This document shows, one piece after another, positions 5,543 through 60,492 of a DNA stretch of 64,000 nucleotides. The stretch is from positions 21,106 to 85,105 of the IMG/VR virus record IMGVR_UViG_3300028197_001229. One strand, given 5' to 3'. The stretch comes from a virus. How positions within the stretch are numbered: position 1 is the first letter of the stretch; each line of letters begins with the position of its first letter. The position numbers were made by a program, and so were the translations under genes. The notes beneath the pieces were generated by a model that was not told where the DNA came from, made no database searches, and was given only the letters and a program-made list of their open reading frames with translations.

Positions 5543-6595
5543 ATGGACTTTGTAAAAGATAATAACCCTAAGCATTTGTTGCAAGTTTCTGCTATGATCG
5601 GGAATTTCCCGGCATATGTCAAGGAAGCTTCAGCTAATGAGCGACAAGAAGAAGTAAAGAATTTAGTGAAATCAGCATTTGCTGATCAACGCACTAAAGA
5701 GTTCCCGCTTAACACTAAGGAGAACACTTACTTAAGTTATGCTTACTACAAGTCAGCAAACTGTGAAGATGTTAATATTCTAAAAAATATAGAGACTGCG
5801 GTAGGGTTACATGGTATAGGCGAAGACGTGGAGCCTATAGACAGCGTCTTTAATGATTTAGATAAGCAAGCTTCGACTGATGTGTTATCTGAAAATTTTG
5901 CATTATCTATAAATTACGGAGATTCTGTAGGTGTAAAGTACTACTACCCTGTCAATGATCAGCAAACCATAACTAAGTCAGCTAGAGATTTGTCAAATGA
6001 TTTTGCAAAGATGCCTATAGAAGCATTTAGACATGCATCTAAAAACTTAGTAAAAGCTGCAAGAAAAATAAATTTAGAAGTATCAAGTTTGCCCGACCGA
6101 ATAAGGCGTAACGGTATAGATCGGGAGTTTAACTATTCAGGTGCCAAAGTTGCATGCAAACAACGTTCAGAACTTTTAGGAGAGGGTGCTGGAAATGTAT
6201 ATGAAGAAATTTTAAAGTCAGCGAGTATTGATGTTGAGAACATTGAAGATTACATAAACTTGTTCACAGATATGGATCGTATGAATGGTGTAAAGTATAG
6301 CTCAACACTACTAAACCCTTACGAATCATTCTTTTCTGGAATTGACAAATTAGCATTAGAAAAGGTTGCTAACGCATACGTAGTAGTTTCTGATGCTCCA
6401 ATTCCACTAGATGATTTCACTAAAGCTGCTAGGAAAGCTATTGAAGAAAATTTCTGTAGTGAAGATCAAGAAAAGCTATTAGGAATAGTTAAAGCAGCTG
6501 AAGACCTTGGCGGGTTATCAGCTAGCGAAAAACTAATACAGTTTCCAGAAGAATTACAAAAACAATTCCTAGGTAGCTTGTTGGATAGAAAATGA
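5543..6595 (+). CDS. Unknown 350-residue protein, possible virion protein
   Basis: Mostly alpha-helical looking and rich in Lys, Glu and Ala, with repeated K/SA-rich helices; no enzymatic motif seen. It opens a four-gene forward cassette. Its TGA overlaps the ATG of the following gene (ATGA), and the cassette ends in a terminator at 8347-8387. The downstream partner is a glycine-zipper membrane-type protein, similar in style to the genes after the portal, so a role in the virion or in DNA delivery is plausible but not shown. Confidence 0.6.
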   Translation: MDFVKDNNPKHLLQVSAMIGNFPAYVKEASANERQEEVKNLVKSAFADQRTKEFPLNTKENTYLSYAYYKSANCEDVNILKNIETAVGLHGIGEDVEPIDSVFNDLDKQASTDVLSENFALSINYGDSVGVKYYYPVNDQQTITKSARDLSNDFAKMPIEAFRHASKNLVKAARKINLEVSSLPDRIRRNGIDREFNYSGAKVACKQRSELLGEGAGNVYEEILKSASIDVENIEDYINLFTDMDRMNGVKYSSTLLNPYESFFSGIDKLALEKVANAYVVVSDAPIPLDDFTKAARKAIEENFCSEDQEKLLGIVKAAEDLGGLSASEKLIQFPEELQKQFLGSLLDRK

Positions 6596-6894
6596 ATAAC
6601 AAAGAAAAATTGTTACTAGTTAAATTGGCAGAAACTGTAGTACAAGACAGTATGCCTACACCTAGTGGTGACGGTGAAATGAATATGGAGCAACCAGCAA
6701 ACATGTTCCAAAACAATTCATTTAATCTATTTCCACAAAATAAAAACTTTGGACCAAAGATATTACCAAATGCTGGAGGTGTTCAGCCTAACTTAATGTT
6801 GGGAGGAGATCCGCAAAATATGGGAGCGCCTAGCACAATGAGTATGACAGCTCCCGGAGGCGGGAAAGGGACTACTCCGAATATAGGTGTATGA
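6592..6894 (+). CDS. Small Asn/Pro/Gly/Met-rich unknown protein
   Basis: 100 residues. An N-terminal helix of about 20 residues is followed by a low-complexity tail rich in Asn, Met, Pro and Gly, which is probably disordered. It starts in a 4-base ATGA overlap with the previous gene and ends in a similar overlap with the next one, so it is translationally coupled on both sides. No family is recognised. Confidence 0.6.
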   Translation: MNNKEKLLLVKLAETVVQDSMPTPSGDGEMNMEQPANMFQNNSFNLFPQNKNFGPKILPNAGGVQPNLMLGGDPQNMGAPSTMSMTAPGGGKGTTPNIGV

Positions 6895-25095: not shown

Positions 25096-25123
25096 TTGCT
25101 AATTTTACGTTATATATAATTGG
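25096..25123 (+). promoter_or_regulatory. Promoter for the single-strand-binding-protein candidate
   Basis: TTG at 25096-25098 is followed 16 bases later by TATAATTG (25115-25122), a one-mismatch version of the Bacteroidota -7 box TAnnTTTG, within the repeated phage motif ACGTTATATATAATTGG. An 8-bp hairpin (TGGTACCA-CACA-TGGTATCA, 25121-25140) overlaps the box end and probable start point. Confidence 0.7.
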
Positions 25124-31884: not shown

Positions 31885-31898
31885 CCGTATACTACGTG

Positions 31899-47511: not shown

Positions 47512-47588
47512 GCGGGAGTAGCTCAGCTGGATAGAGCAACGGCCTTCTAAGCCGTAGGTCCTGGGTTCGACTCCCAGCTCCCGTACCA
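47512..47588 (+). tRNA. tRNA-Arg (anticodon TCT)
   Basis: Full cloverleaf. The acceptor GCGGGAG pairs with CTCCCGT, the D arm GCTC/GAGC, anticodon stem ACGGC/GCCGT with loop CTTCTAA (anticodon TCT), and T arm CTGGG/CCCAG; the 3' CCA is encoded. It would read AGA codons, which are frequent in these AT-rich genes. Confidence 0.95.
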
Positions 47589-48580: not shown

Positions 48581-48656
<76 letters not shown>

Positions 48657-50463: not shown

Positions 50464-50800
50464 TCCAGAAGAAGATGACGAAAATAACGAAGAAACTGAT
50501 ACTCCAATTCTAAAACGATGTGTTGTTGAATATGAGTTTCCTGAAAAGGGAGTGACTATTCGTGAAGAAATGACAATCACGCAGACAGGAGGTATTTTCG
50601 GGGAGAAAATTGCTGAGATCAAAGTTACCGAAGGTGACCAATCTGAGCCTAATGTATTTTGCAAAATGCCTGTACCTCAATGGGTGGGTAGGCTACTAGC
50701 TGTAGTTAGTAAAACATGTAACGCATCATCTCCAGAAAATATGAATTCAAAATCTTTGGAAGAAATTAAACCTATTCACAAATATATATTTAAACGATGA
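50456..50800 (+). CDS. Unknown acidic protein, GTG start
   Basis: 114 residues from GTG 50456. An acidic first 20 residues precede a strand-rich domain (CVVEYEFPEKGVTIREEMTI) and a final helix. Overlaps the next gene by 4 bases (ATGA). Confidence 0.5.
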   Translation: MYNPEEDDENNEETDTPILKRCVVEYEFPEKGVTIREEMTITQTGGIFGEKIAEIKVTEGDQSEPNVFCKMPVPQWVGRLLAVVSKTCNASSPENMNSKSLEEIKPIHKYIFKR

Positions 50801-51174
50801 AAAATACATATCCACAAGCCATACCTAACGATCCTCTACCTGACAACTTTTTACATCATATCGGGGGAGCTGTTCGTGGTAAAATGAAAACAGTTTATCA
50901 AGGCCGTGAAGCCGAGCACTATCCATACTACATTCATGATGTACGTATGCTGGTCCAGGGTACTAAGAACGTAGATAACCTTAGAAAGTTTATTGAAAAT
51001 CATAAACGTATCTATGGTTACGCTGACGGTCCGTTTCTTGGTATTTATAATTTAGAACAATACGAGATTACCGAGAACACTATTGGTATAGTTAATGACA
51101 AAGATCTGCGAAAGCATGTTAAGCAGAAAATGGCCGAAGGTGCCATGTCTGATATACCTAGAAATATTGTATAA
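50797..51174 (+). CDS. Unknown protein upstream of the RNA region
   Basis: 125 residues, basic with several His and Tyr; no motif. Last protein gene before the gene-less stretch containing the large RNA. Confidence 0.5.
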   Translation: MKNTYPQAIPNDPLPDNFLHHIGGAVRGKMKTVYQGREAEHYPYYIHDVRMLVQGTKNVDNLRKFIENHKRIYGYADGPFLGIYNLEQYEITENTIGIVNDKDLRKHVKQKMAEGAMSDIPRNIV

Positions 51175-51194
51175 CAACGTGTTATATATATTTG
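51167..51194 (+). promoter_or_regulatory. Promoter of the large non-coding RNA
   Basis: TTG at 51167-51169 and, 17 bases later, TATATTTG (51187-51194), an exact match to the Bacteroidota TAnnTTTG box within GTGTTATATATATTTGAG. The transcript would begin near 51200, shortly after the upstream stop. Confidence 0.72.
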
Positions 51195-51197
51195 AGT

Positions 51198-51755
51198 GAC
51201 ATCGTTCCCGGGGTTCTCTTTAGATATTATTTCCTACGTTGGTTCGTCTAATGACAAGACACGCTTATGGTTATTAGGTAAGAGCTATACTGAATGTGAT
51301 ATCGTTGACTACTAGAAAGGTAAAATAGTAGCTTACTTTATTGCACCATCTATACGAAATGAGATAAGGGTTGCACGGACTACAAATAAACTGGAGCCGG
51401 ACTTAAGCAATCAGGTTAACCGTAGTTCAACCCAGATTATATTCTACGGAATATAGTCAGGTGATAATGCAAGTAAGTCCATCCCTGTTCGACAATATCA
51501 ACAATCCTTCTGCACGCACAGAAGAACGTTGTGCGTTCGAGCATAATGTAAACTAGGCAACTAATCCCTCACCGACGTAAAGGGTGCTATCATACTTAGC
51601 TCGAACGCAAGACCAATCAGCGCGTGCGCGGTTTGTTTTGATTGTAGCACATAGTGTGTATAGCACCCTAAAATTTAAACAAAACTGATTTCTCATCCCC
51701 GAGAATACCTCGCGGGGTAGTAGGTCCTCATTATGCCTGCTACCCCGTTTTTTTT
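51198..51755 (+). ncRNA. Large structured non-coding RNA of about 555 nt, unknown class
   Basis: The 683-base stretch 51175-51857 holds no protein gene that I can support. It has its own promoter and ends in a strong terminator. Perfect inverted segments read directly: 51309-51314/51326-51331 (CTACTA), 51399-51405/51474-51480 (GGACTTA), a 10-bp hairpin capped by the UNCG loop UACG at 51435-51458, 51507-51512/51519-51524 extended by 51501-51504/51529-51532, 51533-51542/51599-51608 (GCGTTCGAGC) and 51581-51590/51660-51669 (AGGGTGCTAT). The last two cross each other, forming a pseudoknot of two perfect 10-bp helices. Size, structure and tRNA-rich surroundings recall the phage GOLLD and ROOL RNA classes, but I have not matched a known consensus. 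Confidence 0.72.
51713..51755 (+). terminator. Terminator of the large RNA
   Basis: CGGGGTAGTAGG (51713-51724) / CCTGCTACCCCG (51736-51747), 12 pairs with one T-G, followed by an 8-T run. An upstream segment CCCCGAG (51697-51703) can pair instead with CTCG and GGGG inside its 5' part, a possible competing fold. Confidence 0.92.
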
Positions 51756-51857
51756 AAATTTTTATATATTAGAAAAATTGTACATATGTACATGGTACTG
51801 ACAGTTAAATAAAAAGCTTGTCAGGATGTAAAAAATCGAACAATTATTAAAATAACT

Positions 51858-52517
51858 ATGTTAAATGAAAAAATAAAATTACCGTGTTATACTGCCACGT
51901 TTAAAATTCCATATAAAACTTACATGGCTACCTTACAATTGGGTATGTACGAAACTACATCCCGGCTAGTTAATAGCAATTTTGTATATAGGACTCAAGA
52001 ATGTGCTGGTGGTCGTAGGAAAGCATTGGATAAAGTGTGTAATTGGTACTGGGATAAGTACAAAGGAGCTTGGGGACAGGCTCACGAGATAATGGTTTTA
52101 AACGACCCTTATATGGAAGTTATGTACAATGACGATTTTAATTGTGCAGATAAACTCAATCGTTACTTAGATGATGAAACCATTGATAAGTTATTATCTG
52201 ACTGTAACGAAGAGCTAGTACGTGAGGACAACGATACGTTTGGTAAACACCACCCTCGTAATTCGGTAAAACGTAAAAAAAGGCGTAGAGTATATCTCGA
52301 ACATATTGGCGATGGTTTATACCAGCATCCCAATACTAAAGTTATGTACTTTAGGGACACTGTAATTCCGCAGATTACACATAATGGTTCTAAGGGTCAT
52401 CCTGGTGAATACATTCAAAAACGAAAAGTCAAAGACTTCAAGCTTATGTCTAAGAACATAGAAAAAGCTATAAACGAAGTACAAACAAGGTTTGGTCATG
52501 CAATTAGTTTGGGATAG
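51858..52517 (+). CDS. Unknown basic protein
   Basis: 219 residues. A basic cluster (VKRKKRRRVYL near 136) and helical N-terminal region suggest nucleic-acid contact; no known family. The 100 bases upstream, after the RNA terminator, are AT-rich with no clear promoter box. Overlaps the next gene by 20 bases. Confidence 0.5.
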   Translation: MLNEKIKLPCYTATFKIPYKTYMATLQLGMYETTSRLVNSNFVYRTQECAGGRRKALDKVCNWYWDKYKGAWGQAHEIMVLNDPYMEVMYNDDFNCADKLNRYLDDETIDKLLSDCNEELVREDNDTFGKHHPRNSVKRKKRRRVYLEHIGDGLYQHPNTKVMYFRDTVIPQITHNGSKGHPGEYIQKRKVKDFKLMSKNIEKAINEVQTRFGHAISLG

Positions 52518-60030: not shown

Positions 60031-60075
60031 ATTTATTAGTTGACGCATACGGTTACTAACCTTAGAAACAAGCTT

Positions 60076-60252
60076 ATGAGTAATAACCAATTAGCAAAAT
60101 TATCGCTAACAGTATTGATAACAATGTTCAGTATAGGTTTCTATTCTGGGTTTACACAGACAAACTTGTCAGGATTAATAACTATAGGTAGTTTAATATC
60201 CTGTATAGTACAAGTATTCTGTATTACTAGATTGTGGAAGTCTAAAGAATAA
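60076..60252 (+). CDS. Small two-helix membrane protein
   Basis: 58 residues from ATG 60076. Hydrophobic helices at about 8-24 (SLTVLITMFSIGFYSGF) and 31-50 (LITIGSLISCIVQVFCITRL). Unknown function; holin-like size, but no endolysin is recognised nearby. Confidence 0.45.
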   Translation: MSNNQLAKLSLTVLITMFSIGFYSGFTQTNLSGLITIGSLISCIVQVFCITRLWKSKE

Positions 60253-60302
60253 ATTTATTAAATAACATGGGCCACTATTGCCCGGTTGTTTGAGTTGGAA
60301 AG

Positions 60303-60338
60303 AAAGCTCATCTCGCATCTGAGGTGAGCTTTTTTTTA
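60303..60338 (+). terminator. Intrinsic terminator
   Basis: AAAGCTCATCTC (60303-60314) / GAGGTGAGCTTT (60321-60332), 12 pairs, T-run to 60338. Confidence 0.9.
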
Positions 60339-60367
60339 CTTATGAGCTCCTGTGTGACTGACTTTTA

Positions 60368-60393
60368 TTGTTTGACGAAAATCTATATATTTG
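60368..60393 (+). promoter_or_regulatory. Promoter of the protease unit
   Basis: TATATTTG (60386-60393), exact TAnnTTTG, with TTG at 60368-60370 upstream. Gene start follows about 100 bases later behind an A-rich leader; the gap 60394-60492 shows no other feature. Confidence 0.65.
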
Positions 60394-60492
60394 GCACAAT
60401 TAGTGTTATGACGGTGGATTGACCGTTAATGTTACTACATAAGAATAGCGTACTTATGTCGCAGAAAAAATAACAATATAAAAATAAAGAAT

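Follow-up and report, generated by a model that had tools for sequence, protein, structure and literature searches.

The window analysed in this study, i.e. 64,000 nucleotides of an 85-kb virus record (IMGVR_UViG_3300028197_001229), contains a long gap between two genes of the plus strand (Table 1), and the question raised by this locus is what, if anything, the gap encodes. No near relatives were found among GenBank phages, the identity of the polymerase and terminase being less than 27% among the matches listed, and the virus is a phage of an undescribed lineage, probably with a host from the Bacteroidota. A previous inspection of the letters alone, referred to here as the sequence-only reading, proposed that a structured RNA of about 555 nt is encoded at this place, running from a promoter to a terminator. 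The locus has now been analysed with regard to its coding capacity, transcription signals, predicted fold and relationships to known RNA families and to the relatives of the phage.

Table 1 Features of the locus, the nearby tRNA genes and the conserved cores of family X
Feature	Position	Strand	Remarks
Upstream gene	50797..51174	+	125 aa, belongs to no known family; in G001 the orthologue is directly followed by this promoter motif and non-coding sequence
Non-coding gap	51175-51857		between plus-strand genes 50797-51174 and 51858-52517
Lineage promoter motif GTGTTATATATATTTG	51179..51194	+	4 exact matches in the window; recurs 5' of genes in related viruses
TATATTTG, 3' half of GTGTTATATATATTTG	51187-51194	+	fits the Bacteroidota -7 element
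Predicted non-coding RNA, ~557 nt	51199..51755	+	no ORF or codon signal, fold z, no Rfam match; putative transcript
Predicted closing helix	51204-51213/51697-51706	+	unites both ends of the RNA body; minimum-energy fold, prediction only
Predicted long-range helix, 9 bp	51235-51243/51571-51579	+	minimum-energy fold, prediction only
Predicted branched 5' domain	51332..51477	+	includes the C(UACG)G hairpin 51435-51458; minimum-energy fold
C(UACG)G hairpin	51435-51444/51449-51458	+	10 bp including one G-U pair
Helix A, 11 bp, perfect	51532-51542/51599-51609	+	competes with local hairpin 51526-51534/51541-51549
Helix B, 10 bp, perfect	51581-51590/51660-51669	+	crosses helix A; pair probability 0.92-1.0
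Intrinsic terminator	51712..51755	+	hairpin 51712-51725/51735-51748, then T8 at 51748-51755
tRNA-Arg (TCT)	47512..47588	+	tRNA search
tRNA-Met (CAT)	48581..48656	+	tRNA search
Family X core	L060 6915-7041	-
Family X core	L052 13020-13142	+
Family X core	L045 7121-7248	+
Family X core	L071 5451-5579	+
Family X core	L072 7542-7674	+

Coding capacity of the gap

The gap begins at the stop codon of the upstream gene, where the promoter motif is also located, and represents the longest stretch of the window without an ORF of 75 aa. Only one other stretch of at least 300 nt lacks such an ORF (60031-60492); it was dropped, since a short ORF similar to a membrane protein is found there along with a terminator. 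No ORF of at least 60 aa starts or ends in the gap on either strand, and the small ORFs lying wholly within it do not exceed 47 aa. Scored with a codon model trained on genes of the same phage, the gap reached 11.4, i.e. the level of shuffled sequences (mean 10.9, 95th percentile 15.6), versus 21-60 for five neighbouring genes. The claim of the sequence-only reading that no protein gene fits here is thus supported.

The codon score likewise reveals no coding remnant, which counts against the gap being idle or decayed DNA with a leftover promoter and terminator and only chance helices between them. Two further points stand against idle DNA: the promoter and terminator flank exactly this stretch, and more than 600 idle nucleotides would be unusual in a densely coding phage genome.

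Promoter and terminator

A consensus promoter had been claimed at the start of the gap. There is indeed a promoter, but it is a motif of the virus lineage ending in TATATTTG; the sigma-70 consensus was not found, the sigma-70 scan having yielded no promoter at the locus. The window contains four exact matches to GTGTTATATATANTTG, the expected number being 0.01; one is the motif of the gap, and the other three, at 31896, 43047 and 56597, are each situated before a gene. The lineage-wide motif GTGTTATATA(A/T)ANTTG is present in the window at 25111, 31900, 43051, 51183 and 56601 as well as in all the relatives fetched, where it is often found 20-60 nt 5' of a gene; it thus helps to find transcription units and to guess the host phylum. 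The Bacteroidota -7 element reads TAHHTTTG, the start point lying 4-5 nt downstream (PMC6847099), and since TATATTTG fits this element, transcription is predicted to start near 51199. The same fit suggests a host from the Bacteroidota.

The terminator with its run of eight T, also described in the sequence-only reading, is present and predicts the end of the transcript near 51755. With the above start this gives a length of ~557 nt, so that the locus has, as far as can be judged from sequence, a promoter and a terminator of its own, and the proposal of a structured RNA of about 555 nt running from one to the other is supported.

Predicted fold

According to the minimum-energy fold, the two ends of the RNA pair with each other and thereby close the body, and the 5' domain is branched; the 3' part would contain a pseudoknot if both long perfect helices form. 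The two helices, which had been claimed to be of 10 bp each and to cross, are exact and do cross, the first having 11 bp rather than 10. The 10-bp hairpin capped by UACG was also recovered, one of its pairs being G-U. Two perfect helices of at least 10 bp occur at the locus, compared with a mean of 0.105 in its dinucleotide shuffles, and none of the 200 shuffles contained a crossing pair of them. Real DNA of the same phage is a stricter control than shuffles; among 228 overlapping 558-nt windows of this phage a crossing pair was found in one, at this locus alone. Such rarity in both controls speaks against chance helices in idle DNA.

The energy of folding is less telling. For the region 51195-51752 the fold z is -6.3, to which the terminator contributes, the value being -4.8 when it is left out. 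Control windows of this phage (n = 55) average -1.5 (SD 1.8), and the three that fold better lie below -5. Due to this background, the energy alone is weak evidence, and it is here that idle DNA finds a part of its support; taken together with the lack of a homologue described below, idle DNA is nevertheless considered improbable.

Helix A has a rival in the nine-pair local hairpin 51526-51534/51541-51549, of almost equal energy. The nested optimum amounts to -170.7, versus -151.8 plus a duplex of -19.1 for the version with helix A, the latter being a sum without loop penalty that speaks of feasibility only; since the two are close, the RNA might form a pseudoknot or act as a switch. In addition, the strand 51541-51548 is perfectly complementary over 8 bp to the terminator loop 51729-51736. 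Both observations would suit a long regulatory 5' leader. It would control whether transcription passes the terminator and reaches the gene at 51858, and helix A and the local hairpin may serve as its two alternating states. A complementarity of 8 bp is, however, expected by chance in 557 nt, and ~100 nt separate the predicted terminator from that gene. With the comparative evidence from G001 given below also considered, a role as leader appears unlikely.

Comparison with known RNA families

Rfam scans, both at the gathering thresholds and permissive (51150-51860 against all 4227 families), returned just tRNAs and chance matches. The GOLLD model (RF02032, gathering 150 bits) did not match the locus at E<=10, its best score in the genome being 10.1 bits elsewhere. 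The ROOL model (RF03087, gathering 99.1 bits) had no match at E<=10 in G000-G010, nor in the permissive scan of the locus, where OLE and HEARO were also absent. The GOLLD and ROOL searches covered the eleven viruses of the group and were run without a positive-control genome with a known ROOL or GOLLD. The covariance-model check suggested by the sequence-only reading thus placed the RNA in none of the classes named there. BLASTN against phage and plasmid records gave nothing credible for the window RNA.

Two tRNA genes had been placed 3-4 kb upstream; both are present, at ~3.6 kb (Arg-TCT) and, closer than claimed, at 2.5 kb (Met-CAT). ROOL is often encoded near tRNA genes, contains pseudoknots and has an unknown function, and GOLLD is a large phage RNA near tRNA genes with a conserved 3' part and a variable 5' part (PMC12286853). 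The window RNA resembles ROOL in being large (the ROOL model has 574 positions), phage-encoded, close to tRNA genes and capable of a predicted pseudoknot, and differs in that the ROOL model finds no match in this virus. It resembles GOLLD as a large RNA of a virus with tRNA genes nearby and with the pseudoknot in its 3' half; it differs in the lack of a model match at the locus and of any sequence conservation seen.

A ROOL or GOLLD diverged beyond the recognition of covariance models would account for the phage origin, large size, pseudoknot and nearby tRNAs, both RNAs being often found near tRNA islands (PMC12286853). The likeness is, however, a general one with no shared motif, and neither the permissive scan nor the dedicated models—run, as mentioned, with no positive control—matched the locus, so that such a descent seems quite improbable. 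As regards the alternative left by the sequence-only reading, a new class or a distant member of a known one, the choice between the two is only half settled, no Rfam model having matched even in the permissive scan; the RNA is a candidate for a new class of large phage RNA, comparable in build to ROOL and GOLLD and probably not a member of either.

The possibility of a diverged tmRNA (RF00023) deserves a mention, because relatives of the phage encode a full tmRNA (G002) and a tmRNA tRNA-like domain (G001), and tmRNA is also structured and pseudoknotted. Contrary to tmRNA, the window RNA has no tRNA-like domain or ends, neither ARAGORN nor the tmRNA model matched the locus, and the sole weak match of the model in this genome is the tRNA-Arg; this origin, already contradicted, is therefore extremely improbable.

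Relatives of the phage and the corresponding stretch in G001

According to DNA polymerase identity, the IMG/VR relatives are G001 (72%), G002 (60%) and G003 (44%), and portal alignments yielded seven more, at ~50% identity. No alignable RNA was seen among the relatives from the portal and the 43122-gene alignments. The orthologue of the upstream gene is detectable in G001 alone among the relatives found, and searches of viral contigs with the flanking genes gave no relative beyond G001. Scanning viral contigs for the promoter pattern yielded, besides G001, three matches, all inside genes of unrelated viruses. Single-sequence covariance models were built for the pseudoknot domain and for the 5' domain; models of this sort have low power for distant homologues, and these two matched only the window itself in 0.79 Mb of relatives. 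With no alignable homologue found, the window RNA is an orphan.

In G001 the gene order is conserved from the polymerase through the 125-aa upstream gene, and the promoter motif stands right after the stop codon of the orthologue, being followed by ~1.1 kb without coding signal. This stretch has a fold z of -3.6 versus shuffles (-3.8 for the 5' half and just -1.4 for the 3' half), and contains a 9-bp hairpin whose loop pairs with a 9-bp strand. It shares no nucleotide similarity with the window RNA, nor is there a covariance-model match with filters off. It corresponds to the window RNA by position, homology being not proven. The contig of G002 appears to stop short of the corresponding position; both G001 and G002 have a tRNA-Met in the genome part that matches the place of the tRNA-Met in the window.

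The G001 stretch bears on two of the explanations above. Unrelated sequence at the same place, with no homologue elsewhere, is what idle DNA could present. The fact that the structured stretch of G001 has no clear terminator and reaches a gene start would fit a leader; the genes downstream are, however, unrelated, G001 having no homologue of the gene that follows the gap in the window.

Family X and other elements of the lineage

A scan of the ORF-poor stretches of the relatives revealed an RNA not described previously, designated here family X, with the lineage promoter upstream and a terminator. From promoter to terminator it measures 420-513 nt in four viruses; a search with a model of the core then brought the number of these distant relatives to five, and in the last one short ORFs may fill the first part of the transcript. 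In the core alignment 97.2% of cells are paired, a value that leans towards structure because the alignment was fitted to the model. Eleven pairs are changed on both sides; shuffles gave 4.5, none of the 500 reaching eleven, and sliding of the partners gave 0-2, again with the alignment fitted to the model. Neither an Rfam model nor a phage record matches family X, and an 18-base motif from it had eight matches in a contig search, approximately the chance level for 257 Gb. Its neighbours in G007 and G010 are a gene of 665 aa on one side and an SbcD nuclease-like gene on the other.

Family X and the window RNA share the promoter motif, a terminator hairpin, a similar promoter-to-terminator length and the virus lineage, and differ in sequence and in their place in the genome. 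Model R3, built from the conserved core of family X, gives 112-152 bits for its members and at best 7.3 bits for the window region with filters off, which rules out membership. As a conserved RNA class, family X is better supported than the window RNA.

Several other elements were observed in the relatives. G002 encodes a full-length tmRNA directly behind the lineage promoter (L015 3708-4110, plus strand; 84.4 bits), missed by ARAGORN. In G001 there is a 71-nt tmRNA tRNA-like domain alone (L013 11004-11074, minus strand, contig 105004-105074; 60.3 bits to RF00023), matching just the two ends of the tmRNA model: it has an acceptor stem with a G-U third pair, a T arm and a CCA end, and a short loop in place of the messenger/tag and pseudoknot part. 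One might guess that such a domain without a tag is a decoy in ribosome rescue or a tmRNA mimic. An ORF-poor region of ~440 nt in G003 (L020 17381-17880, plus strand; z -3.2), without an Rfam match, has at its end a fragment resembling a T arm and acceptor (GGGAC...GTGAGTTCAAATCTCACCGTCCC). At the contig end of G002 (L017 ~6270-6773, plus strand), non-coding DNA contains alternating short motifs (GAATGAATCA..., GATAGTAACA...) with irregular spacing, in which a tandem-repeat program found no repeats, and in G008 (L057 2884-3871, minus strand) imperfect repeats of 12 nt resembling AATTCTGTTCGT, together with linkers, extend over ~1 kb. G007 carries a group I intron (RF00028, 59.4 bits) near tRNA genes (L055 3061-3277, plus strand). 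The stretches 5' of tRNA-Arg in G004 and G007-G010, first taken for a second RNA, appear to contain short ORFs and a terminator and were dropped.

Interpretation and biological meaning

Based on the above results, the gap most probably represents an independent phage gene, with a promoter and terminator of its own, whose product is a large, folded non-coding RNA acting in trans; this explanation is held with reasonable though not high confidence. Its favour is increased by the structured RNAs that other viruses of the lineage carry after this promoter motif, and by the ~1.1 kb of structured non-coding sequence into which the upstream orthologue and the same motif lead in G001. Counted against it are the lack of any alignable homologue in the searches made, the absence of a clear terminator from the G001 stretch, the only moderately exceptional fold energy and the competition between helix A and the local hairpin. 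The recurrent phage promoter would start the transcript and the terminator would release it, the body would fold as predicted, and the finished RNA might then act in trans, for example as a scaffold, as a multimer or by binding a host factor. Action in trans is likelier than that of a leader, owing to the own promoter and terminator and to the unrelated downstream genes in the window and G001.

A more far-reaching and rather tentative idea is that of a new, fast-evolving class of large pseudoknotted RNA, which in a lineage of Bacteroidota phages would always sit at the same place close to the tRNA genes, behind a promoter, and would have a structural role or form an RNA-only assembly, the G001 stretch being its diverged counterpart.

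The lineage looks rich in large or structured RNAs, including the orphan of the window, the G001 stretch, family X and two tmRNAs, one complete and one of which only the tRNA-like domain is left. ROOL and GOLLD are large phage RNAs that form RNA-only assemblies of unknown function, in the case of GOLLD a homo-oligomeric nanocage. Large RNAs unrelated to them in other phage lineages would suggest that folded RNAs have evolved repeatedly near tRNA genes, and would supply independent systems for testing why.
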